DNA of 64,000 nt from assembly GCA_004764695.1 (NCBI GenBank), contig SMSO01000025.1:5448362-5512361 (forward strand), in the 5' to 3' direction. The notes under the pieces were generated by a model that was not told the origin of the DNA, did no database searches, and was given only the letters and a program-made list of their open reading frames with translations. This stretch comes from Schizochytrium sp. TIO01. Lineage: Eukaryota > Sar > Bigyra > Thraustochytrida > Thraustochytriidae. Positions 1,866-63,953 of this stretch are shown here, piece by piece. Positions within the stretch are counted from its first letter, which is position 1; every line of letters starts with the position of its first letter. Made by a program: the position numbers and the translations under genes.

Positions 1866-4800
1866 TTGACAAATTGTCAAGCACAAAAAGCAGCGCCGCA
1901 GACCGCTCTGGAGCGAGGAAGTTGGCGGCGCTTATCGAGGCTCATGCGTCCCGCAGGCCGCTGGGCCACGGGTGGGCGTGGCGGCCGCGGTGGTTCTCGC
2001 GGAGGCGGTCGCGGCTCCCGGGGTCGGCCAGCAGCGGCCACGCCGGCCTCCTTGGCTGCTCTGCAGCAGCAGCAGCTAGAGGCAGACGCGAGGCAGCGTA
2101 ACGCTGGACCGCTGAGACTGGCACTGCTCATTTGGGCTTTGGTAATTATCTTGCAGGGAGAACCCTCGCCGGGAAAACCAAGGGGCTCCGGCAGACACAA
2201 GCTGCGAGGCAACAACCTCGCGCTCGCCAGGAACTCCTCTGACGATGCCAATATTCACGCTGAAAATGAAATGGGGAACAAAGGGTTGGCTGAGGGTTCA
2301 TATGCAGAAGGCAAATATTCAACGAGAAAGTCCTCGTCCAGAGCGGCCAGAAGAGGACGCGAAGGCGCCGAGAATAATGAGAGTGAAGATGAGGATGACC
2401 TCGGACCATTTGCAGCTTTCGAACAAATTCTTAATGACAGGAGAAATGCTCTCGGAGATGTTATTGCGACTTTTGGAAAAGCCGAAGAGGCTCTGAAGTT
2501 CCCAAAAAATCTGTCTGGCACGCTCACAGGAGAGTACTATTTGGAGGCAGAAGCAATGGGTTTTGACTTTGGGTTTACAAGTGATGATGACGACGCATTT
2601 AGGGGGCAAGGCGAAGAAGCAAGCCTTTATGAAAAAACAAAGAGGCAAGATGATGGTACAGAGGATAATAATGATCATTTATTGTGGCTTCGGGATCAGC
2701 AACGGATAATTTCGAACTCTAAACAGTTCCTGCACGTACACTCGGCAACGGAGGTTTTGGACAACTTTACACAACCGGAGAAAGGGATCCAATTTAGGTC
2801 GAACAAGGGTGAGTTTGTCCTGCGTTTGGAGTTTGTCAAGACAAAGATTGAGGGTTTGCAATACGTATCAGGCACGGTGAGCATCGTGGTTGGCGCCACA
2901 CACTCTATTCGGGATGTGTATACTTATGTCGCTGGATACTATATTGAGAACACCGGCGAGCTGACGCTGCTTGTCAATTCGCCAGCCTATCCAAATTCAC
3001 ACGTTGGCGTTGACTTTCGCTCGCACAAGTCTGACGCGAAGCTCCTCCTTGATTCCACTAAAGCTCAGGAAGACGAAGCATATCATGAAATGCCCAGCAA
3101 ACCTGGGAGTAGCTCTTCTGAGGAATCGGGAAGGTTATACGCTGATGCAGAGAATACAGAGACTGAGAATACCCATACCGATCATATGCGGGAAGTTATT
3201 CTTGCATCATTAGATTCGACTGATAACAAGAAGCCTTCGGATCACAATAAAAAAGTGGAAGTAGGAGGTGTACATAACGAGTTGGAGATGAACTCATCAT
3301 CAAAGTCGACAGAGTCTTTGAGCGAAACAAAGTCATCCTCATCTGCTGTGCAAAATAAACAACAAGGTGCTAGCGAGACTGTGGTGTCTCAAGGTTCGTC
3401 AATATCATCTACAACCAGTCCTGCAAAGACCCGCGAGAATGATGAAAGTCTCGAGGCGGCACCTGTTTTGTTCGATGACAAGCAAGGAGCACAGGAAGTT
3501 CTAGATGACATTGGAACCCAAACTAAGGAATCCCCGTCAAGCCTGGTGTCATTACCTCATGCTGGAAGTAAAGACGAAGATTCAGGCGAAGAGGATGCTG
3601 GACTGAGCCAGAACCAGATTAAGGAGCAAGTACGTCAAGAAGAAGGGTCTTCAAATTCGCCGACCAGTAAGGAACAACTCGCTTTAACGCCAACAGTGAA
3701 ACATGATGCCTTTTTGGAGATGATAAATATGCTTGACACGACCGAGGAAGCTAAGGCGCTCTTGGATGGCCCTCGCTGGTCTCGATTGTGGGACACTGAG
3801 CTTGGCGTCGACAAAGGCCGTATCCAACGAAAGTCGAGGGCAAACACACTTTATGGTGCAGAACCTCCTTGTTTCCTCCGCATGGAACTCTTTGTCCACC
3901 CTGTCGGAAGTTCTACGAAGGATAAGGACCAAGTTGGAAACACATTGGTTCTGGGTTCAGGGACTGAGTTGAGGGTTACCACAGTAGAAGGTACTGTGCA
4001 GAGTCCGAATTGCCCAAACCCCGACTTCAAGGTGAAAATGCAAACCTATGGCGAGGACATTGGACGGCTATTAACCAAAGCGACCGACTTCTTTTCTGTG
4101 GATCTCCCGTTCACGATTCTCGGTGCCGTCTCTCTTGTGACACAATATGTTCATACACGTTCACTTCCGCGTGCCGCGCAAGTCTCGCTTTTGACTATTG
4201 GCGGTCTTGGTTTACTTGACGGCTGTCTTGCGCTAGCATACTTGAGCAGTGGGCTCTTGGTTGAGAAGCTCGGATCCTCAGCAGTGCTTGTGGCCCTGGC
4301 TAAATCGTTGCTTGTCACATTTCTCGAGATGCGCTACTTGATGACGATTTGGAGAGGCCGCCATCCTCAAACAGCATGGGATACCTGGGCTGAAATGGAG
4401 CGCTTGCAGCGACGTCTATCAAAGCGCTTCCAAGCCGCGTTCGTTGCTACGATTGTGATTCTTTTTATTTTTCTCGAGTTCCATCGCATCCTCTGGTTCA
4501 TTGCGTTATCCTTTTGGGTGCCGCAAATTTATTGTAACATCAAGTTCAACTCGGCGACGCAGGTGCACCCGTTCTTTATTGTCGCAACTTCTTTGACCCA
4601 ACTTCTCGTTCCGATGTACATATACGCATGCCCGAAGAACTTTCTTACATTACTGGTAAGGAGTCCTACGATTGGTAACAGCCCTGTCTATGCCAGCTTT
4701 CTTGCGCTGTGGGTGATTTTACAAGTCATGGTGCTTTTTATCCAGCGTTGCATCTCCCCGCACGCATTTATTCCTGCGCGTTTCCTCCCCCCCAAATATG

Positions 4801-4991
4801 ATTACAACCGCAAGATTCCTGAGCGTTTGCGCGATACTCAGTGTGCAATTTGCTTGCTTGCTGTGACTGGAGTTGATGAAGAGCACATGATCACTCCTTG
4901 TAATCACTTATTTCATCGCGATTGTCTTCGCGTTTGGATCAATGAGAAGTTAGAATGCCCGACTTGTCGCGCCGCTCTTCCTCCAGTGTAA
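1866..4991 (+). CDS. Tul1/FLY-like multi-pass membrane RING-H2 E3 ubiquitin ligase
   Basis: This 1041-aa single-exon ORF has a Gly/Arg-rich N-terminus (about residues 27-60). A hydrophobic segment near 84-95 (LALLIWALVIIL) could be a signal anchor. A long acidic/Ser-rich luminal-type region runs to about residue 630. A conserved block (FLRMELFVHPVG) is followed by several hydrophobic helices between about 725 and 960. The C-terminus is a RING-H2 finger at 993-1035: CxxC, PCNHLFH, C, CPTC. This order, with the RING at the extreme C-terminus after the transmembrane bundle, matches yeast Tul1 (Golgi/endosome DSC ligase) and plant FLY1/FLY2. It probably ubiquitinates membrane proteins in the Golgi or endosomes. 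The start could instead be Met27. The RING and topology are clear; orthology to Tul1 is inference. Confidence 0.82.
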   Translation: MTNCQAQKAAPQTALERGSWRRLSRLMRPAGRWATGGRGGRGGSRGGGRGSRGRPAAATPASLAALQQQQLEADARQRNAGPLRLALLIWALVIILQGEPSPGKPRGSGRHKLRGNNLALARNSSDDANIHAENEMGNKGLAEGSYAEGKYSTRKSSSRAARRGREGAENNESEDEDDLGPFAAFEQILNDRRNALGDVIATFGKAEEALKFPKNLSGTLTGEYYLEAEAMGFDFGFTSDDDDAFRGQGEEASLYEKTKRQDDGTEDNNDHLLWLRDQQRIISNSKQFLHVHSATEVLDNFTQPEKGIQFRSNKGEFVLRLEFVKTKIEGLQYVSGTVSIVVGATHSIRDVYTYVAGYYIENTGELTLLVNSPAYPNSHVGVDFRSHKSDAKLLLDSTKAQEDEAYHEMPSKPGSSSSEESGRLYADAENTETENTHTDHMREVILASLDSTDNKKPSDHNKKVEVGGVHNELEMNSSSKSTESLSETKSSSSAVQNKQQGASETVVSQGSSISSTTSPAKTRENDESLEAAPVLFDDKQGAQEVLDDIGTQTKESPSSLVSLPHAGSKDEDSGEEDAGLSQNQIKEQVRQEEGSSNSPTSKEQLALTPTVKHDAFLEMINMLDTTEEAKALLDGPRWSRLWDTELGVDKGRIQRKSRANTLYGAEPPCFLRMELFVHPVGSSTKDKDQVGNTLVLGSGTELRVTTVEGTVQSPNCPNPDFKVKMQTYGEDIGRLLTKATDFFSVDLPFTILGAVSLVTQYVHTRSLPRAAQVSLLTIGGLGLLDGCLALAYLSSGLLVEKLGSSAVLVALAKSLLVTFLEMRYLMTIWRGRHPQTAWDTWAEMERLQRRLSKRFQAAFVATIVILFIFLEFHRILWFIALSFWVPQIYCNIKFNSATQVHPFFIVATSLTQLLVPMYIYACPKNFLTLLVRSPTIGNSPVYASFLALWVILQVMVLFIQRCISPHAFIPARFLPPKYDYNRKIPERLRDTQCAICLLAVTGVDEEHMITPCNHLFHRDCLRVWINEKLECPTCRAALPPV

Positions 4992-29530: not shown

Positions 29531-32500
29531 TCATTGGAAGAAGATAAAAGAGGCCTCGAGTGATAACTCGACCAACCTATGCTGTTGCCATAAACTCAAT
29601 TTGTGGCTATCAATGTTTTCAAATTTAGAAGTCGTGTTCTGAAATCCACTGGGATTCGACTCAGGAGGAGACAACAGAGGTTGCCCGTATGAGTTGAAAG
29701 CAGGACCACCATTCTGTACCCTTTCCTCTGAGAATGCGTCCTGAATAGCCCTACGCCATTGAAGAGAAGAATACTTTGAAACCTGATCTAAAATGGTCAA
29801 AATATAGGCTACTCCAACAACAAAGCCATCATCGGTAAAAAAAGCATCGTGGTGTTGCTGGGGCCGAGCAAGCCGCTCATGCGCAGCAAGCGACGACTCA
29901 ACGAAGTTGACGCATAGTGCTGGCACTAACATATAAAAGTAATCTAAATGATCTAATGAAGAAGTGTTGGGTCCAGAGCATCCAGACGGAGCTGCTTGTT
30001 GGTTGCTTCGATGACCGGATCTCAAAGCATCGCGGAAGACCTCCACAAGGACAGGAAGGTAGTCCTTCCCAAGCTCATACTTTTCACACAACGTTTCGCG
30101 CACTTGTGCTAAAGAAATGACGGCATTATCGACCTCGTTGTTTCCTAGAAAGAGATCCAATGGCGTGCTGTATAGGTTCGGCAACAACTGCGCGGCATTG
30201 GCAACCCAGTGGCGCCCCGCTGCACGCACCATGCGAACGAAACCCAAAGTGTTTCCTATCTTGGTCACAATTTCACGAATTCGTGTGAGATATGTGACAC
30301 CAGGCTGGAGTTCACCTATGTTTCGAATTTCCCGATTATAGCGGAATGCCCGTTGATAGGGATAAACATGCTCAATCGCAGAGTCTCTCATGTGAGAAGT
30401 AAACCATCTTCGTTCCCGAGCTAGATATGATTTAATTGGTTCAATCATCACGAGGTCCGACATCTCAGAAAAAGCTTCGGTGAGATACTGGTATGTGAAA
30501 TTAACACATGTGCTTAAGATGCCTAGGCCATGTGTGCTGATTGAACTAGAAATTGTTTCTACTGTCAAAGTACGCAGAGACTTGGCTCCTCGCCGTGCAC
30601 GCCGCTCTATAAAGAATTGTTGATTTAAATTATAATTGTACAGAGATACGAAGTGTGACCATCGCCTCAAAATGCTTAGCATGTCTATCCCAGCATCAAG
30701 CCCACCCTGGGGTAACGCTGAGTCCTCTATAGAGAGCCCATACTTCTCATGAGCAATTTTCTGCATTTCTGCATAAACACGCCAATCATGCAAAGAAAAG
30801 ACTGTCATGTTATAAAACTGTCTCTGTAAGTAATGCTCAATGTATTCGCGCGAATCAATGGTCATATCCATAATCTGGATATGACCTGTTCGTAATGCAG
30901 GTTTCAGCTGGTCAACCTGGAGCATCGACTGTTTAAGGTAGTCCATTCTAATGGCATGTTGTTCAAGTCGCAAAGACTGATCAACACGCACGCACAGTGG
31001 ATCTAAATAGTGATCTTTTACAAGTCGTAAGAGTTTGTCGCGATACCTGACACGTTCTTCTTGAAAGGAAGCCCCAAAAATGGTTCGTCCAGCCCGTGCA
31101 AAAGCTTTGACAAGGATCGGGACTCGTGCAGGGGGCGAGTCCTTAAGCATAACAGGAAGAAATGTGTCCATGTCCCATAGAAGCATCGTACAGTCACATG
31201 CGCGTTCTAACGCTGATGGCCATTGGGAAATAAGACGTAAGCGCTCAAGTTGCCTTTCAAGGTGAATCGATTCCTCCCAGGAACAATATAAAATGTACTG
31301 TCCATCAAGGTTCTTATGAGCTATTGCTGCTGCTCCAATCGCAAGCTTTATGCGATCCAAACTCATCATGCTAGCAGTACTCTCTTCCAATATATCAAGC
31401 CCGGCCATGACTAAGCCATTAGCTTGAGGGGAGCGATGTTTATTGCGACGTCGCGTCCATACGGAAGATTGGCGTTCGATATCTGCAAATACCTCTGCAT
31501 GAATTGAAAGGCTGTCATTTGCTGCAGTCAATCCATACGATAAAAACTTGCATGACATATCCTGAATTGTCTCAAGGAGTTCAATACACACGGACAGGGA
31601 TGAGTTGACAAGAGCTTTACTCATAGGAATTTGCTCAAGCGCATGCAATTGACGCGTTTGCACAAGCACACGGCGGATTCGGTAAGCGAGGGCAACAGCT
31701 TGAACCATATACTTTTCACGGCGCGCTTCGGTTGCTGCCGCGACATCCGAGGTCAAGATTAAAACCTGTTTTGCGTATGCAGGCAATCGTTGCTCCAACG
31801 AAGCTACAAATCTCTGGATATAATCTTTACGAAACGAAGCCCCAGCCTCGAGGTCTCCAAGAAAGCAATCAAGCACCCAGCCGGAGGTCCCTGTCAGAGG
31901 TACCACAGGTATAAGACGTCCGAGCCCTCGCAGCACCCGCCAAGCATCACATTTTCCACCCAAATCCTCAGCCAGCTGGCAAAGGACCGAGAGTCCAATC
32001 AACTTAGTCTCGCACTCATACGAAGGCAATATCTCTTCCTCACGATTCGCAGCCCTCCACTCCGCCTCAAAGTCGCGCACAAGAAGGTCGCATACACGTA
32101 AAAGAGCCTTCAAGTGATGAATCCCTACAGTCTTCCGAAGCGCTTTGCGAGCCTCAGTGCACCACAATCCCTGCAAAGTCTTCTCGTCCCCAGTGGTCCA
32201 GCTTGATCCCGGCACTCTCATGTTCTCCGCAGCATCAGCAAGTGATTTTCTCCATGCTTGAAGGTTATCGCTTTGTTTTACGAGAGTGTCAACACTTTCC
32301 AACATGCCAAGGCAGTGTGCCAACCAGCTCCAGGCCGAGAGAAAGTTCTCACAAACCTGAGCCAGACCGCCTAGAGAGACCCAGAGCATTTCAGAGACCT
32401 CAAGGCAGCGAGAAGAGAATACGGATGCGTGGCGGATATGTCTTGAAATCTTGTCGCTGCGTTGCAAAAGGGCTCCATCACAGCCGTCATAGGGGCCGTC

Positions 32501-32803
32501 GCCGGTTTCGACGCAGCCTACAAGGTTTGGAAAAACCAGTTTCTCGGCTTGAAAGCTCAGGTCCTGTGCCTCCTCGCACGCATAGGCTAGGAACTCAAGC
32601 TTCCCGCGTGGGGTTTGCGCGAATGAAGACGAAGGTGGCGTTGAAGCTGGAGACCTCCACGAAGAGCTCACTGAAGATGCTGACGGAGGAGAGGAGCGAA
32701 GTTGGGCGGCACGATGCGACCCTGAAGGACAAACCGCTTCAAGGCGGGAACGGTAAGAGGTGAGGAAGGAGCGGGCTTCGGGAGCATCGGCACAAGTGGC
32801 CAT
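29531..32803 (-). CDS. WASHC4: WASH complex subunit 4 (SWIP/KIAA1033-like)
   Basis: This is a 1090-aa ORF; animal SWIP is about 1170 aa. Diagnostic blocks are AFRYNREIRNIGELQPGVTY followed by LTRIREIVTKIGNTLGFVRM, and FFTDDGFVVGVAYILTILDQ with SLQW shortly after (from residue 988). These are the most conserved parts of SWIP across eukaryotes. The protein is all-helical with no membrane segment and an Ala/Ser-rich N-terminus. SWIP is a core structural subunit of the WASH complex, which activates Arp2/3 on endosomes to drive retromer-dependent sorting. No frameshift or intron is needed. The last ~60 residues are divergent. Confidence 0.95.
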   Translation of the reverse strand: MATCADAPEARSFLTSYRSRLEAVCPSGSHRAAQLRSSPPSASSVSSSWRSPASTPPSSSFAQTPRGKLEFLAYACEEAQDLSFQAEKLVFPNLVGCVETGDGPYDGCDGALLQRSDKISRHIRHASVFSSRCLEVSEMLWVSLGGLAQVCENFLSAWSWLAHCLGMLESVDTLVKQSDNLQAWRKSLADAAENMRVPGSSWTTGDEKTLQGLWCTEARKALRKTVGIHHLKALLRVCDLLVRDFEAEWRAANREEEILPSYECETKLIGLSVLCQLAEDLGGKCDAWRVLRGLGRLIPVVPLTGTSGWVLDCFLGDLEAGASFRKDYIQRFVASLEQRLPAYAKQVLILTSDVAAATEARREKYMVQAVALAYRIRRVLVQTRQLHALEQIPMSKALVNSSLSVCIELLETIQDMSCKFLSYGLTAANDSLSIHAEVFADIERQSSVWTRRRNKHRSPQANGLVMAGLDILEESTASMMSLDRIKLAIGAAAIAHKNLDGQYILYCSWEESIHLERQLERLRLISQWPSALERACDCTMLLWDMDTFLPVMLKDSPPARVPILVKAFARAGRTIFGASFQEERVRYRDKLLRLVKDHYLDPLCVRVDQSLRLEQHAIRMDYLKQSMLQVDQLKPALRTGHIQIMDMTIDSREYIEHYLQRQFYNMTVFSLHDWRVYAEMQKIAHEKYGLSIEDSALPQGGLDAGIDMLSILRRWSHFVSLYNYNLNQQFFIERRARRGAKSLRTLTVETISSSISTHGLGILSTCVNFTYQYLTEAFSEMSDLVMIEPIKSYLARERRWFTSHMRDSAIEHVYPYQRAFRYNREIRNIGELQPGVTYLTRIREIVTKIGNTLGFVRMVRAAGRHWVANAAQLLPNLYSTPLDLFLGNNEVDNAVISLAQVRETLCEKYELGKDYLPVLVEVFRDALRSGHRSNQQAAPSGCSGPNTSSLDHLDYFYMLVPALCVNFVESSLAAHERLARPQQHHDAFFTDDGFVVGVAYILTILDQVSKYSSLQWRRAIQDAFSEERVQNGGPAFNSYGQPLLSPPESNPSGFQNTTSKFENIDSHKLSLWQQHRLVELSLEASFIFFQ

Positions 32804-57748: not shown

Positions 57749-59242
57749 CTAAAGGCTCATCAACATGGGCTTGGACATGTAGGCCTGGAAGACCTGAAGG
57801 TACTGGCCAAGAGTGCGGTCATCCACGACGCGACGGTCAGCGGAAACCTGGACAGTGAGAACGTTGACAACACGCATGTCAGCAGGGTCGTCAGTAGGGC
57901 AGACGAACTCCTGGCGACCGCCACCCACAGCCATAATGGCGGAGTGAGGCGGGCTAATGACGGCAGTGAAGTCATTAATGCCAAACATACCGAGGTTGGA
58001 CACAGCAAAGGAGCCACCTTGGAACTCCTCGAGCTTGAGCTTGTTGCTGCGAGCGCGGCCAGCGAGGTCCTTCATGTCAGCAGAGATCTGCATGACACCC
58101 TTCTGGTCGGTGTTCTTGACGATAGGTGTAATGAGACCAGTGGGTGTAGCAACGGCAACTGCAACGTCTACGGACGAGTTCTGCACAATAGATCCGTCAG
58201 GCTCCACGCGGCAGTTGACGGTGGGCACATCACGAAGAGCAAGCGCGGCTGCCTTGAGGATCATGTCGTTGATCGAAGGTGCCGATCCAAGGGTAGCCTT
58301 GAGCTCCTTGCGCATCTTAAGAATCGCATCAATTTCACAGTCAATGGTGGCATAAAAGTGAGGGCGAGACTGCTTTGACTCTGACAGCCTGCTGGCAATA
58401 ACCTTACGCATGTTGGTGAGCGGGATGTCCTCGTACTCGCGCTCCGGCTCAGACTCCGGAAGTCCGTTCGCAGCGGCTCTGGTAACGCCCTGAGGCTGCT
58501 TCTGCTGGGTCTGCTGCTGAGCCTGAGGCTGCTTCTGCTGGGCCTGCTTTGGCTCCTGAGCTTGCTTCTGGGGTGCGGCAGAGTGCTGATCCACGGGTTT
58601 CTTACCTTCCACGGCGCGAACAGCATCTTCTTTGCTCACAATAGCAGTTCCAGAGGGGCTCTTGGCGGAGCCATGGATCTTTTTGGCATCAACACCGAAG
58701 GTCGCAAGAATCGCAGCAGCCGCAGGGGATATGAGCTGCTTATCAGGCACGGGACCTTCATCCGCAGCAGCTTGTGTTGATGCCGAAGAGGTGGAGGTCG
58801 AAGCTGAAGATTCGGATGAAGTTGAAGGTGTAGATGAGGATTTGGAGGTGAGGAAAGAGAGGTCCATCTTGTTGACAGCCTCTGCGATGTCCTTGGAGTC
58901 AGCGATAACAGCGATGGTCTCTCCCACGGCGATGTCTCCGCCCTCGCCAGCGTTAATGAGGATCTTGGCGAGCACGCCGTCGTCTTGTGCTTCGAAGTCC
59001 ACGGTGGCCTTGTCGGTCTCAATCTCGGCGAGCACGCTGCCAGCCTCGAAGGAGTCCATCTCGCGAAGGTTCCATGCGGCGACGCGGCCGCTCTCCATCG
59101 TCGGAGAGAGTGCCGGGAGAGGCACGGCGCTGGCGCCCTCAGGCAGCTTCTGCGCAGAGCTCATGAGGCGCCAAGAGGATGCCCAGGACAACCGCACGCG
59201 AGCCGCATGGCTGCCGCGCAGAGCTGAAGCCGCACGAAGCAT
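57749..59242 (-). CDS. Pyruvate dehydrogenase E2-type protein, E3BP-like (no catalytic His)
   Basis: This 497-aa ORF has a mitochondrial presequence (Arg/Ser-rich, about 1-32). The lipoyl domain spans 36-118 with the lipoylated Lys78 in EIETDKATVDFE. An E3/E1-binding domain lies at about 170-208 (LISPAAAAILATFGVD). A Gln/Lys/Pro linker (218-252) contains repeated QKQPQ units. The C-terminal acyltransferase core starts near 270 (IPLTNMRKVIASRLSESKQ). The catalytic HxxxDG of E2 is here RRVVDD (470-475): His is Arg (codon CGT) and Gly is Asp. Vertebrate E3-binding protein (PDHX) shows the same kind of change at this site. The protein therefore probably anchors E3 (dihydrolipoamide dehydrogenase) in the complex rather than making acetyl-CoA. 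Its start codon lies 219 bp from the transposon end. Confidence 0.9.
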   Translation of the reverse strand: MLRAASALRGSHAARVRLSWASSWRLMSSAQKLPEGASAVPLPALSPTMESGRVAAWNLREMDSFEAGSVLAEIETDKATVDFEAQDDGVLAKILINAGEGGDIAVGETIAVIADSKDIAEAVNKMDLSFLTSKSSSTPSTSSESSASTSTSSASTQAAADEGPVPDKQLISPAAAAILATFGVDAKKIHGSAKSPSGTAIVSKEDAVRAVEGKKPVDQHSAAPQKQAQEPKQAQQKQPQAQQQTQQKQPQGVTRAAANGLPESEPEREYEDIPLTNMRKVIASRLSESKQSRPHFYATIDCEIDAILKMRKELKATLGSAPSINDMILKAAALALRDVPTVNCRVEPDGSIVQNSSVDVAVAVATPTGLITPIVKNTDQKGVMQISADMKDLAGRARSNKLKLEEFQGGSFAVSNLGMFGINDFTAVISPPHSAIMAVGGGRQEFVCPTDDPADMRVVNVLTVQVSADRRVVDDRTLGQYLQVFQAYMSKPMLMSL

Positions 59243-59456: not shown

Positions 59457-59460
59457 TTAG
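59457..59460. repeat. Left target-site duplication TTAG
   Basis: TTAG immediately precedes the CCC terminus and is repeated directly after the GGG terminus at 63950-63953. PiggyBac elements normally duplicate TTAA; this pair differs at the last base. Confidence 0.8.
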
Positions 59461-59469
59461 CCCTGGCTA
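59461..59469 (+). repeat. Left terminal inverted repeat
   Basis: CCCTGGCTA exactly matches the reverse complement of 63941-63949. Confidence 0.88.
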
Positions 59470-59701
59470 AATTCAAAATGTCCCGAATTATGTCCGCAAA
59501 ATATTTTTGACTAAAATCGCCAGAAAACCCTGTAAAGATCTAAAATCGTAAATTTGATTGTATGATCATGTTGAAACAACTGTTTCCCTAAACTGAGCAC
59601 GATTTCTTTGCAGAAGCAAGCGTATTGAGCTCACGCTACTCGTCCAAAAATTGGCTCACAACCTCGATAAAACGGCCTAATAGGGCAAATAGGCCTTTAG
59701 A

Positions 59702-59728
59702 TTTTCAGGACGTAATACGTCCTGAAAA
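59702..59728. repeat. Left subterminal palindrome (core GGACGTAATACGTCC)
   Basis: A 27-nt perfect palindrome with 13-nt arms around a single central base lies 241 bp inside the left terminus. The right end carries the same core, so it may be a transposase binding site. Confidence 0.85.
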
Positions 59729-59921
59729 ACTGAACTTTGCATTAGCGAAAACGTATAAGAGTTTGGGTATTTTGGTTAGTTTAATAGTTTAGTTAATATA
59801 AACAATAGTAGTTTATTTTTGCGTTGCTCAAGTCGGAGAAACATCTAAAGATGAAGATTTCGCGATAAATGAAGATTTTATATAAGCTAAATGTAATATT
59901 AATTTTTTGTGTGGATAATTT

Positions 59922-62900
59922 TTATGTATGGAAATGAGGAATCGTAATTTGCTCCTCGCTATGAAATTTGATATTGCAATGCTTACAAATGTAAGCATTG
60001 CAAGTTTGGCACCATCGAGTGGTCTTCCGTGGATTACGATATGGATGGTCTGGCGCCGATCCCCGTTCGCAATCAACACAACACATAATGCAGGCTCCCC
60101 TCTTCTTGAACTTGCCCACGCATTCATGCTGTCCAACTAAACGAGTTTGTAGAAGTTCTGGGAGTCGTGACTTACTGTATTGATACTGTTGCGGCGATTC
60201 TAGCGAGGCTGTAGAAGTAGGCGAAATGGTGTTATCAGTTGCTCTCCAGCAGAATTCTATGTCAGACATGGAACAAGTATTGTCAAATGGGTAAAGGGAT
60301 TCCATTGAGACAACCCTAATTTCTTCTGCGAGACTACTTAGATAGCCTCTATAGCAGCACAGATTTTTGCGTAGCATTGACCATTCCGTAATTGTTTTAC
60401 ACTTCGATGTGAGGTTCCGATGCTCCATTGAGAGGAGCTGATACGCTCGAAACGAGTTGTATAAAATATAGTCAATGAATGTTAAACAAACCAAAGCATT
60501 AGGAGTCAGCTTTGAAGTACGAATGCTCGCTCCATTGATAGTTTTTCTAGTGATATCAACTCCGCCCATCATCTTATTCCAGACACTAACAGTCAAAGGC
60601 AGTAGGCGTTTGCAAGGCGGTGGGGTTCCGTTGACCAGCACGTCGTCACTATGCCTCCGCCAAAGCTGCAAAGCGAGTTCGGCACTGTGTAAATCCACAG
60701 CATAACCCCAGTCTGGTGATTGGTCTGGTGCAAAACGAGGAAACCTACCAAGTTGATTGCCATAAGCAAAGCCCATGTATTCATCACTCAACGCTTTGAA
60801 ATACTCACGCCATGACTGGCGCTGGGCACATGAGACTTTGATTAGCACTCCTTGCATGATTTCCTCAGTTGTGGCATATATAAGGAGGGTGTAAGGGACA
60901 TCTAAAGTAGCTGCATGATGGATACACTGAGTTCGAAACGACGGATTTGGGACTAACGACTCGAACTCACTTGTTCCACATTTGCATTCGTGCCACGCAC
61001 TCTGACCAGCAACTCGAGACTTTAACTCATCTATAGTTTTGGCATTTGTACTTGTTTTGATTTCTAAGGCAAATACATCATCTATAACAAAATTGTTTCC
61101 TTCTAGCTCTGTATTCCTCAAAAGAACAGCTGCACCGTCGGGTGAGTCTGCTACAAATTGGACTTCCCGATTAATAATCAGACCATATTTGCGTAGCTGG
61201 AGAATACAGAATTTATTGGAACTTGCTTTCTTAACCCATCTGGAAAGATCTTTCGCCACGTCTGCCTCATTTTCAATCCCCAAAGCCAGTGGGTTTTTAT
61301 GATTCGAAAACCCATTTTGAATAGGCTTCATAAACCAACTTGGTGTGATTGTTCTAAGAAATGATTTCTGGCGTTCCTCGAAAGTGCATGTATGGTTATC
61401 ATCAATCGTTTCAGAATTGTGCAAGGGAAAGCTGTCCCCAATGTCACTACTGTCACTCATTTCCAGCAGGTCTTGAGTAGTGGACTCCTGAGATGCATGC
61501 TGAGGGTGTATGTCTTCCTGTAAGGAAGATAGTTCTCCGTTTGAGACCGTTTCATGATCTATAGTTCTTGATAGGATGTCTACGATCCGCTTGGCTAGTT
61601 CGATCTTTTTGCCATCAGTCTTTGCACCTACATCCAAAGAAAGTAACTTTTGGATAAGCTCATTTTTGTTCATACGTTGCATCCAGTATGTATATTCAAG
61701 AATAAGACCCTCCCCTTGACGCTTCCTTTTATATTGCTTCTGAGCTCCTTCAGATGAATAAGAAGAACGCTTATTAGGACGGGGGAATAATGAGATAATT
61801 CGTTGCGGGTCAAGACAAGCGAACGATTTCACATCGTGGTGTAAGGCCATAAGCTCATCCGAATGAACGAATGGAGCATTTTTAAAGTTGATACAGGTAA
61901 AAGCACCGGTGCTTGTAATTCTAAATTGCCGAGCCATAAACCAGTCAGGTGTTCTTTGGGAAATTGTCATTGAGAAGATATTGGCGTTCACAAGGTTAAT
62001 TTTATGATTAGCTTGTGCCTTCATCTTATATGTACTCATGTCACACGGCTCTATCTCAATCTCAGCATGTGGAACGCGCTTTACACCACCTGGTGAGTTC
62101 CAATCTACTCCAGCAGGAAGTACTTCGTAACTCCAAACTTGGTCAGCCAAACAACGGTCGTTCGTGATGAGTTGTGCAACTCTATGCTTTCCCGCACCGT
62201 GACGCATCATCATCGCAGCAACAAAATCGCCATTCTGGTATCTTTGAGCGGTGTAGGTGCTTCGACGGCCATTCCTGTTAATGATAGTTTGACTTCCCCT
62301 CACAGGCGTAGCAGGAACTGGTCCTTCAACATCTATAAACGGGAATGACGAGGTCTTGCGACAAGTTCCAAGAAATTTGACTCCCTTTGACTGAAGAATT
62401 TGAGTTATGTTTGTTGCACGATCCATATCCTGAGGTTTCGATAATGCCAGATAACCACGATCAATGAATACACGAAGCTCTGAAGACACAGACGCATCAG
62501 GGCTTTCTCCTGACTCCCCCTCATTCAGAAAATCTATTGCCTTGCTTACAATTTTATGAACAGGTGAGTGGGAAGTCTCTAACCGTGGTACTAGGAGCAG
62601 ACCTGTACCCACAGAGCACACAAGATGTATCACGGGTTTCTGTTTTTTTGTTTTCGTTGGAATGGTACGAATTCCAAAATTCTCCCACTGAGGAGAACCA
62701 TAGGGAAGCTTGTCGTCATCAAGATCGATCCAAGTGGTTTTAGGGACAAAGAACATCTTCACCCAATGGCGCTGAGCAGCACCTCCCATTTCATGGATGA
62801 TCGGACTTGAGGAGCATACTCTAGCCTCGCGTGACCCTTTTGTTGCCCGATTGGACTTGTCCAGGCTCATTGCCTTTCGAACTTTTGAATAGGATACCGT

Positions 62901-63437
62901 ATGGGCTAGATTCCAATGACCTGGTGGGTCCTCAAGACACTCCGAGAACGACTTTCCTGCAACTCGCAGAGAAATTTCAACGAGAAGGTAGGCACGGAAA
63001 TCTTGATCCGTGATAGAAAATGGCGGAGATGCGTTTGAGCTAAGACTATTCAACCATTCCTTAACTGCAATCACCCAGCCTGGCGGCAAACAAATCTTGA
63101 AACTATCAAGCCTGGTAAATTTGTAGTTATTGTCAACACGAAGAACCTTTCGAATCCTTTTAGTAATCTCCGAACTTTCTTGTTGAACCTTGGGGAGCAT
63201 TAATTCGCTTGAGCAATTGTACTTGAGTTGGACTGCGTTCATGCCAAGTTGAGACCCAGATAGGTTGCTGTGGTACTTTGCGCCTTCAGTGGAGTAAGAT
63301 TGAAAGGTCCAGTTTTCATGGCCAGGAGTACTTGCCGATGAACACTCATAGAGATCGTTCTCGTCTTCATCAGAAGAAGACTCATCAGAGGAAATGTAGA
63401 TTGAGTCCTTGTCATTCTCGACGTCATCTAGAGACAT
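59922..63437 (-). CDS. PiggyBac-type transposase with embedded SAP-like and YqaJ/lambda-exonuclease-like nuclease domains
   Basis: The N-terminus of this 1171-aa ORF is acidic. PiggyBac DDE regions follow: PVIHLVCSVGTGLL (268-281, where the first catalytic acid is expected), LRVFIDRGYL (D326, second), and WNKMMGGVDITRK (D961, third). The C-terminal Cys-rich finger at about 1116-1159 (CxxC, C-x2-C, CKHC, H) is as in piggyBac. Between the second and third regions, ~400 extra residues hold RTPDWFMARQFRIT (495-508), a SAP-like helix pair (about 592-622), G-x-x-x-E (720-724), SPDG (765-768), LEIKT (791-795) and TQCIHH (836-841). These are the Arg, Glu, Asp, Glu-x-Lys and Gln motifs of YqaJ/lambda-exonuclease PD-(D/E)XK enzymes. 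The first DDE acid seems to be Ser, and the usual extra Asp after GGVD is Arg, so transposase activity is uncertain. Confidence 0.83.
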   Translation of the reverse strand: MSLDDVENDKDSIYISSDESSSDEDENDLYECSSASTPGHENWTFQSYSTEGAKYHSNLSGSQLGMNAVQLKYNCSSELMLPKVQQESSEITKRIRKVLRVDNNYKFTRLDSFKICLPPGWVIAVKEWLNSLSSNASPPFSITDQDFRAYLLVEISLRVAGKSFSECLEDPPGHWNLAHTVSYSKVRKAMSLDKSNRATKGSREARVCSSSPIIHEMGGAAQRHWVKMFFVPKTTWIDLDDDKLPYGSPQWENFGIRTIPTKTKKQKPVIHLVCSVGTGLLLVPRLETSHSPVHKIVSKAIDFLNEGESGESPDASVSSELRVFIDRGYLALSKPQDMDRATNITQILQSKGVKFLGTCRKTSSFPFIDVEGPVPATPVRGSQTIINRNGRRSTYTAQRYQNGDFVAAMMMRHGAGKHRVAQLITNDRCLADQVWSYEVLPAGVDWNSPGGVKRVPHAEIEIEPCDMSTYKMKAQANHKINLVNANIFSMTISQRTPDWFMARQFRITSTGAFTCINFKNAPFVHSDELMALHHDVKSFACLDPQRIISLFPRPNKRSSYSSEGAQKQYKRKRQGEGLILEYTYWMQRMNKNELIQKLLSLDVGAKTDGKKIELAKRIVDILSRTIDHETVSNGELSSLQEDIHPQHASQESTTQDLLEMSDSSDIGDSFPLHNSETIDDNHTCTFEERQKSFLRTITPSWFMKPIQNGFSNHKNPLALGIENEADVAKDLSRWVKKASSNKFCILQLRKYGLIINREVQFVADSPDGAAVLLRNTELEGNNFVIDDVFALEIKTSTNAKTIDELKSRVAGQSAWHECKCGTSEFESLVPNPSFRTQCIHHAATLDVPYTLLIYATTEEIMQGVLIKVSCAQRQSWREYFKALSDEYMGFAYGNQLGRFPRFAPDQSPDWGYAVDLHSAELALQLWRRHSDDVLVNGTPPPCKRLLPLTVSVWNKMMGGVDITRKTINGASIRTSKLTPNALVCLTFIDYILYNSFRAYQLLSMEHRNLTSKCKTITEWSMLRKNLCCYRGYLSSLAEEIRVVSMESLYPFDNTCSMSDIEFCWRATDNTISPTSTASLESPQQYQYSKSRLPELLQTRLVGQHECVGKFKKRGACIMCCVDCERGSAPDHPYRNPRKTTRWCQTCNAYICKHCNIKFHSEEQITIPHFHT

Positions 63438-63853
63438 GACACACAGCTGACGTTAAACTCAAGCGCCAATGGACCTCTTCGCTGAGGGAAGTGCTGATAG
63501 ATCCCAAGTAGACTAGCAAGTGGACGATGAAGTAAGGTATGATGTACTTTTGTTGGTACTGCTGGCACTACATGCTGGCGCAAGATATTATTGATGTTTA
63601 TCAGTATTAATTGTCTGGTAGAACAGGTACCGTGGGAGAACCTAACGACCATGTGTCAAATACCTGTTAACCTAACCACCACCTAACCGCCACTGAGAAT
63701 GTCATTGTTTGGTCCTAAACTCAACTATCAATCGGAGAATCATGAGAACATGATAACATATGGACAGGTGAGGTCGGGGAGGGTAAACTAAACGAGTTTC
63801 ATCCCGAACAGAGCTAGACTGTTGAATTGATCAATGACTCAAGTAGGTACATA

Positions 63854-63880
63854 TTTTTCGGGACGTAATAAGTCCTTAAA
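63854..63880. repeat. Imperfect copy of the subterminal palindrome
   Basis: This sequence begins TTTTTCGGGACGTAATA and continues AGTCCTTAAA. Its left arm is intact and its right arm mutated, 58 bp from the perfect right-end copy. Confidence 0.75.
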
Positions 63881-63911
63881 TACTCTACCGGGAAAATTAA
63901 AGTTTATCCGA

Positions 63912-63940
63912 TTTTTCGGGACGTAATACGTCCCGAAAAA
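63912..63940. repeat. Right subterminal palindrome (core GGACGTAATACGTCC)
   Basis: A perfect 29-nt palindrome with 14-nt arms and one central base directly abuts the right 9-bp terminal repeat. It shares its core with the left-end palindrome at 59702-59728. Confidence 0.88.
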
Positions 63941-63949
63941 TAGCCAGGG
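63941..63949 (-). repeat. Right terminal inverted repeat
   Basis: TAGCCAGGG is the exact reverse complement of the left terminus. Confidence 0.88.
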
Positions 63950-63953
63950 TTAG
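63950..63953. repeat. Right target-site duplication TTAG
   Basis: TTAG immediately follows the right GGG terminus and matches the four bases before the left terminus. Confidence 0.8.

Follow-up and report, generated by a model that had tools for sequence, protein, structure and literature searches.

A piggyBac-related transposon of Schizochytrium sp. TIO01 with a predicted YqaJ-like nuclease nested in its transposase

piggyBac transposons have CCC...GGG termini and subterminal repeats, and the RNase H fold of their transposase already contains an insertion domain at or beside the position, between the second and third catalytic aspartates, that is of interest here. In Tn7 a PD-(D/E)XK protein, TnsA, acts beside the DDE transposase TnsB. 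The closest precedents for lambda-exonuclease-like nucleases in transposons are KolobokE and ISL2EU. KolobokE, in the excerpts of its description used here, is a DDE transposon of a different superfamily with a PD-(D/E)XK, lambda-exonuclease-like nuclease downstream of its transposase domain, the Kolobok target being TTAA (PMC9587614). The majority of autonomous ISL2EU candidates carry a gene for a YqaJ exonuclease protein, which occupies a second open reading frame (ORF) beside a PHIS-type transposase; the target is AT-rich and the target-site duplication (TSD) is a 2 bp AT (PMC4482050, like the papers cited below drawn on in excerpt). This report concerns a 64,000-nucleotide stretch of Schizochytrium sp. 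TIO01 DNA (the window; GenBank assembly GCA_004764695.1, contig SMSO01000025.1, positions 5,448,362 to 5,512,361) and a complete transposon of 4489 bp within it, at window positions 59461–63949. The single ORF of this element encodes a piggyBac-related transposase in which a predicted YqaJ/lambda-exonuclease-like nuclease is nested. Kolobok membership was rejected on the CCC termini, the NTAN TSD and the location of the nuclease inside the transposase, and ISL2EU membership on the 4 bp NTAN TSD and the one ORF.

The element resembles piggyBac and piggyBat in its 4 bp TSD with a central TA, the GGVD motif at its third aspartate, its C-terminal cysteine-rich domain and the near spacing of its first two aspartates, and it shares CCC...GGG termini and subterminal repeats with piggyBac. 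It differs in its targets, TTAA being used at one of nine insertions as against 23026 of 23417 for piggyBac in HEK-293 cells (PMC3499496). Pokey, a member of the piggyBac superfamily from Daphnia, is like the element in accepting other targets (TTAT, ATAA and CTAA), its authors suggesting that the central T and A alone are required, but unlike it still uses TTAA at 88% (PMC3849761). PiggyMac, the domesticated piggyBac of Paramecium, cuts both strands so as to leave 4-base 5' overhangs with TA at their centre (PMC3077386), which resemble the NTAN of the element, and its partner paralogues (PgmL), which are without a complete DDD triad of catalytic aspartates (PMC6143343), resemble two homologues described below (P0003 and P0005) and perhaps a third (P0004). 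Unlike the element, PiggyMac is a developmental excision enzyme and is not mobile, and the four domains listed for it in the excerpted account do not include a nuclease insert (PMC8086355). The piggyBac fusion listed in the literature, CSB-PGBD3, is with a host gene; no report of a nuclease nested in a piggyBac catalytic domain was found among the papers listed by searches of the open-licence literature (Repbase lay outside the search). An earlier note, made from the letters of the window, had known of no such piggyBac fusion either, and this holds within the literature searched.

Anatomy and recent movement of the element

The ORF lies at 59922–63437 on the minus strand, exactly where the earlier note had placed it; it starts with ATG and runs in one uninterrupted frame of 1171 amino acids (product P0001). 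The complete transposon around it, with terminal repeats and TSDs, had been missed. The layout is TTAG, then CCCTGGCTA ... TAGCCAGGG, then TTAG, the termini being 5'-CCC. The left and right TSDs were read at 59457–59460 and 63950–63953, and the terminal inverted repeat CCCTGGCTA occupies 59461–59469 (plus strand) and, as its reverse complement, 63941–63949 (minus strand). Directly internal to the right end, at 63911–63941, is a near-perfect palindrome of about 30 nt with the core GGACGTAATACGTCC. A second, degenerate copy (87% identity) lies near the same end at 63855–63884 and another about 235 bp inward from the left end at 59696–59734; shuffles of the window gave a mean of 0.00 matches, and the palindrome may be a transposase binding site.

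The genome (64 Mb, 37 contigs), in which an omega-3 PfaA-type PUFA synthase array scored above its cut-off, as would suit a thraustochytrid, was searched for relatives. With P0001 as the query, 27 match rows were obtained, seven of them full-length at 100% identity (the window copy included). These seven elements match one another at 4489 of 4489 bp, their flanks are all different and each is bounded by a perfect 4 bp duplication (ATAT, ATAA, TTAA, TTAG, ATAA, CTAT and CTAA). The joined flanks of eight insertions were searched for in the genome; an empty site was found for one of the eight and none for the other seven. This site, at C30:9722773–9723068, is 99% identical over 296 bp to the joined flanks of copy L002 and carries one ATAA where L002 reads ATAA-element-ATAA; it may represent either an allele that the element had yet to enter or one that it left by precise excision. 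Together with the identical copies, this empty counterpart points to recent movement. We regard the element as a DNA transposon that is autonomous, has been active recently and belongs to a new lineage related to piggyBac.

Contig C17 (39 kb) matches C30 around the insertion, about 53 kb from the end of the latter, and differs by the insertion (about 450 bp compared); it may be an alternative haplotype or a duplicate. One identical copy (L003, G000:C24:5429136–5432648) shares a contig with the window copy, at a distance of about 79 kb, and carries the sole TTAA duplication among the nine read. An older copy at C34:603616 is 97% identical to P0001. Homogenisation of the seven copies by nuclease-driven gene conversion was considered and is possible, but is less simple than recent spread because this older copy stayed unhomogenised. 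Queries with the element ends each returned at least 16 match rows, comprising at least nine candidate places (the seven copies, the older copy and one diverged piece) and the palindrome's own opposite-strand matches; no short non-autonomous derivatives were seen with these queries of the genome.

Target sites were tabulated for nine insertions, fragments being left out. All nine duplications read NTAN (the seven above plus CTAA and CTAG from a second family); G is never first and C never last, and NTAN has a frequency of 5.2% in the window. The TSD of the older copy is unreadable because its CCCTGG end is gone. At the Pokey rate, at least eight of nine non-TTAA targets would be expected with p of about 3e-7, and six of seven, for the copies of the window family alone, with about 2e-5. 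Of the marks of the piggyBac superfamily, the element shows the 4 bp TSD with a central TA and the 5'-CCC terminal repeats but not strict TTAA use; as TTAA was found at only one of nine sites, it is described here as piggyBac-related and of a separate lineage, not as a canonical piggyBac element.

The transposase core and the nested nuclease region

The probable first catalytic aspartate is D241 (62715–62717, with D240 or D242 as possible alternatives) and the second is D326 (62460–62462), both assigned by motif; the third, D961, lies in the GGVD motif (60555–60557), which hhalign aligned with the GGVD of Trichoplusia ni (T. ni) piggyBac. The spacing of the first two (85 residues) is close to that in T. 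ni piggyBac (78) and piggyBat (72). From D326 to D961 there are 635 residues, compared with 101 in T. ni piggyBac (D346–D447) and 104 in piggyBat, so that the figure of roughly 100 given earlier for piggyBac was confirmed; the gap is long because of the nested nuclease.

Profile comparison was performed with hhalign against the PDB sequences of T. ni piggyBac and piggyBat, or against a five-member set that adds three loci of this genome (L039–L041), with 30 shuffles each. Residues 903–1171 scored 43.0 and 49.4 against the two PDB sequences (E 2.1e-5 and 2.5e-6; shuffle maximum 20.4) and 44.6 against the five-member reference with four family rows; with two rows the score of 18.6 was below the shuffle maximum of 23.2. 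The segment thus exceeded 30 of 30 shuffles in three of the four settings (shuffle maxima there 20–21), with GGVD paired to GGVD and the match extending into the cysteine-rich domain. As a control, the nuclease region (485–905) remained within the shuffles in all four settings. Pfam analysis of P0004, a homologue from the same genome, returned the piggyBac-type zinc finger zf-Tnp_2 as its only family (E 9e-4, 20.2 bits against a cut-off of 24). The third-Asp half of the transposase, made up of the GGVD-bearing DDE helix together with the helical part after it (906–1045; 60303–60722) and the C-terminal cysteine-rich zinc domain (1111–1171; 59925–60107), is established as piggyBac-homologous by sequence comparison, and with the CCC termini and 4 bp TSDs this upholds the piggyBac-type assignment first made for P0001. 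The half with the first two aspartates (225–460; 62058–62765) probably belongs to the DDE core, on the basis of the aspartate spacing and a local profile match; among four settings, the best local match of residues 210–460 was the strand after the first aspartate in three and lay elsewhere in the fourth.

The region between the two halves (485–905; 60723–61985) was assigned with Pfam, NCBIfam, hhalign and MAFFT. It contains the YqaJ N-terminal motif Q494..W499..R503..TST (494–510; 61908–61958), E722/E724, SPDG (765–768; 61134–61145) with the putative metal-binding D767, LEIKT (791–795; 61053–61067) with E792 and K794 of the E-x-K motif, and Q837 (60927–60929) as the candidate downstream Gln, so that all of the PD-(D/E)XK motif residues listed by the earlier note are present. 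The W-R-S/T, G-E, SPDG and E-x-K motifs of the lambda-exonuclease/YqaJ family (PF09588) occur in the same order and identity; unlike the members of that family, the region is embedded in a transposase and has a long stretch, bearing a SAP-like segment, after the first motif. The ordered pattern was found in one of the 90 stop-free stretches of at least 100 amino acids in the window and in none of 20,000 shuffles of P0001, counts that are descriptive, the pattern having been written after the protein was seen.

YqaJ was the only Pfam family returned for queries from which the linker had been removed (spliced), with E 0.043 for P0001 and 0.013 for the second-family protein P0002, and also for an unspliced 447-residue fragment of P0002 (E 0.015). 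Spliced P0001 had the lambda-exonuclease family TIGR03033 as its top match in NCBIfam (E 0.008). When compared with a profile built from 38 viral YqaJ proteins and P0006, the genome's stand-alone YqaJ gene, the region scored 32.6 with two family rows and 24.8 with four; neither score was reached by any of 200 column shuffles (maxima 24.4 and 23.9), and four control segments of P0001 scored 12–14. With realignment, the four-row profile instead paired the residues leading up to and including SPDG. MAFFT was used to align the region with 27 viral YqaJ proteins (A4): Q494, W499, G720, E724, S765–G768, E792 and K794 fall in invariant columns and R503 in a nearly invariant one; Q837 is not aligned to the viral Gln and was assigned by eye because A4 looks misaligned after LEIKT. 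Identity between P0001 and P0002 is 47.5% in the nuclease core, 46.5 and 51.1% in the DDE parts and 25.7% in the linker. A YqaJ/lambda-exonuclease-like nuclease nested between the second and third aspartates is therefore supported with caveats.

Within the linker, the SAP-like helix-loop-helix (584–625; 61563–61688) corresponds to the top Pfam match of that piece, SAP (PF02037; E 0.02, 15.0 bits against a cut-off of 23.9), and its helices have a predicted local distance difference test (pLDDT) value of about 85 in the second of two AlphaFold models. The SAP-like motif proposed earlier keeps this top match, at a score that is weak and below the cut-off and with a match in one of the four relatives tried.

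A sequence search of the PDB returned nothing for P0001, the nuclease region or the L039 domain, profile A1 matched only three chance-level ribosomal proteins there (E > 2), and PHROGs returned only families that are unrelated or of unknown function (best E 0.019). Elsewhere in the genome, a stand-alone YqaJ ORF of 407 amino acids (L042, C36:4088765–4089157; PF09588 84.4 bits) has PDB relatives that include lambda exonuclease and protein R354, which we take to be from Mimivirus; it could be a host gene, a viral remnant or part of another transposon.

Relatives of the transposase

P0002, 40% identical to P0001, is encoded in a 4389 bp element with CCCTGGATA termini and CTAA duplications; a broken sister copy, of 97–98% nucleotide identity over the alignment, has CTAG duplications. 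CCCTGG termini occur in both mobile families. Three further homologues, P0003 (33% identical to P0001), P0004 (25%) and P0005 (20%), occupy open frames of 1232–1305 amino acids (L030, L031 and L032), for which no 9 bp perfect terminal repeat with a matching 4 bp duplication was found from about 1.6 kb upstream to about 1.8 kb downstream. P0001–P0005 can be aligned over the whole layout (P0005 least surely), so the nuclease insertion is old; seven identical copies and divergent homologues with the same layout also rule out chance.

In the C-terminal domain, none of the ten tabulated Cys/His positions has changed in any of the five sequences, and the three aspartates and the tabulated nuclease residues are all kept in P0001 and P0002 (I793 being Phe in the latter). 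P0003 is without D241, D961, R503, E722, E792 and K794 and keeps D242, D326, D767 and Q837. P0004 is without D241, R503, E722, E792 and K794 and keeps D240, D242, D326, D961, D767 and Q837; its DDD triad may be intact because the first aspartate could be any of D240–D242. P0005 is without D241, D326, D961, D767, K794 and Q837. E-x-K is thus broken in all three relatives that have no detectable terminal repeats, and the DDD triad is surely broken in two of them. That P0003–P0005 have retained long intact frames despite their broken active sites suggests domestication.

Homologues outside this genome were sought by a pattern scan and tblastn with P0001 in IMG/VR and phages and by a search with alignment A2 in IMG/VR and GTDB genomes, and none was found; T. 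ni piggyBac likewise had no match in IMG/VR. The single loci L039, L040 and L041 carry piggyBac DDE domains (PF13843) in long open frames, and look domesticated because their translated stretches are without the GGVD motif.

Role of the nuclease and competing explanations

The element is best read as a piggyBac-related transposon in whose transposase a YqaJ/lambda-exonuclease-like nuclease is nested; a probability of about 0.6 is assigned to this. The DDD core would cut with a 4 nt stagger centred on TA, as in piggyBac and PiggyMac, and would paste the element at NTAN sites. The likeliest of several roles for the nuclease, at slightly under even odds, is the resection or trimming of 5' ends at the donor break, by which repair would be steered to homologous copying or imperfect overhangs trimmed. 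Homologous copying would refill the donor site and raise the copy number, and the SAP-like segment would keep DNA close to the nuclease. More tentatively, it is proposed that one polypeptide holds two DNA-cutting sites (piggyBac-type DDD and nested lambda-exonuclease-type), that the nuclease is required for mobility, that TTAA was loosened to NTAN in target choice, as in PiggyMac, and that such a nuclease was here recruited independently for a third time, beside KolobokE and ISL2EU. If this is true, the element would offer, within one protein, a means of studying what leads transposons to recruit resection-type nucleases and how breaks at the donor site are directed into repair, and would be a mobile counterpart to the TA-centred cutting of PiggyMac in which loosened TTAA specificity could be studied outside ciliates. 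The DDE insertion-domain position would then be able to house a whole second enzyme, and three recruitments of lambda-exonuclease-like nucleases at short AT-rich targets (KolobokE TTAA, ISL2EU A|AT|T) would suggest a shared need at such breaks.

Several results weigh against this reading. The best YqaJ matches of P0001 need the linker-removed sequence. The highest scores overall are 16.2 bits for PF09588 against a cut-off of 22 and 16.3 bits for TIGR03033 against 68.05, and because the scores are below the family cut-offs the region is called YqaJ-like and not a member. Spliced P0002 gave nothing in NCBIfam at E <= 10, Pfam did not report YqaJ for intact P0001 and P0002 at E <= 1, nor for unspliced nuclease fragments of P0001 at E <= 10, and the best hhalign alignment is confined to the N-terminal motif Q494-W499-R503-TST. 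AlphaFold models of residues 466–906, the part for which the structure prediction advised earlier was made, were poor (mean pLDDT 36 from the single sequence, and 52 with 27 viral YqaJ rows, the latter partly circular), and Foldseek with the second returned nothing at E <= 0.001. Nuclease activity of region 485–905 is a prediction from its residues. The earlier note's YqaJ/lambda-exonuclease assignment is supported by a profile score above 200 of 200 shuffles, the library matches all being sub-threshold. On the side of the core, residues 210–460 scored 17.1, 16.4, 18.7 and 15.9 against piggyBac, with shuffle maxima of 21.6, 22.7, 18.0 and 17.6, and so exceeded the shuffles in one of four settings, by 0.7; the split DDE domain first proposed fits the aspartate spacing and the third-Asp half, its first half lying at or inside the shuffle range, and the closing of the two flanks into one RNase H fold is a prediction. 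Pfam DDE_Tnp_1_7 did not match P0001, spliced or not, which makes it a divergent piggyBac relative, and the whole protein gave only a chance DUF. The zinc-domain matches are all below cut-off, with B-box-like models first in P0001 (zf-B_box, E 0.001) and P0003. P0004 has lost nuclease residues and keeps D240, D242, D326 and D961, so the DDD and nuclease sites are not strictly lost together. Finally, the ratio of nonsynonymous to synonymous substitution (dN/dS) between P0001 and the older copy, calculated from few changes, is 0.32 for the nuclease region (7 nonsynonymous, 6 synonymous), 0.83 for its core 684–905 (3 and 1) and 1.25 for the first DDE part (17 and 4).

It is unlikely that the nested nuclease itself carries out a chemical step, cleaving the second strand or opening a hairpin at the end of the transposon, in the manner of TnsA beside TnsB. 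A different end geometry would then account for the relaxed NTAN target, the catalytic domain encloses the nuclease, which is not appended at an end, and the two mobile families both retain intact nuclease and DDD residues; piggyBac, however, makes both strand cuts with the DDD site alone, the 4 bp duplication and clean empty site resemble those of piggyBac, and YqaJ/lambda-exonuclease enzymes are exonucleases, not site-specific cutters. We hold it similarly unlikely that the insert is mainly a DNA-binding or structural domain with a SAP-like module, positioning ends or targets, its catalysis being unimportant. DDE transposases commonly have insertion domains at the same place, and in three relatives with long ORFs the insert persists although its nuclease site is no longer intact, P0004 perhaps retaining a full DDD triad; yet these three, with E-x-K broken, are the ones without detectable terminal repeats, and the tabulated active-site residues are kept in both mobile families at 40% overall identity.

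It is more doubtful still that the insert is unrelated to YqaJ and that SPDG and LEIKT arose by chance or convergence in an insertion domain peculiar to this lineage. Database matches that are absent or below curated cut-offs would fit this, as would the absence of a structural match (from a poor model searched with Foldseek), but two profile libraries and hhalign (0 of 200 shuffles as high) name the same family, and the motifs stand in the right order and are kept in the 40%-identical family. Hardly any weight is given to the ORF being a host gene or domesticated transposase that is not presently moving: the long open frames of P0003–P0005, which show no detectable terminal repeats, are what domesticated genes would look like, but for the window copy the host-gene reading was rejected on the seven identical copies in different flanks, their 4 bp TSDs and the empty site.

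The window has a G+C content of 45.6%. The left end of the element (59461) is 219 bp upstream of the ATG of a pyruvate-dehydrogenase-E2-like ORF (57749–59242, named by inspection of its sequence), and the insertion may therefore alter the expression of that gene. Clear host genes are present at 29531–32803 (WASH complex subunit 7/4-like) and 1866–4991 (RING/DUF2921 transmembrane E3-like).

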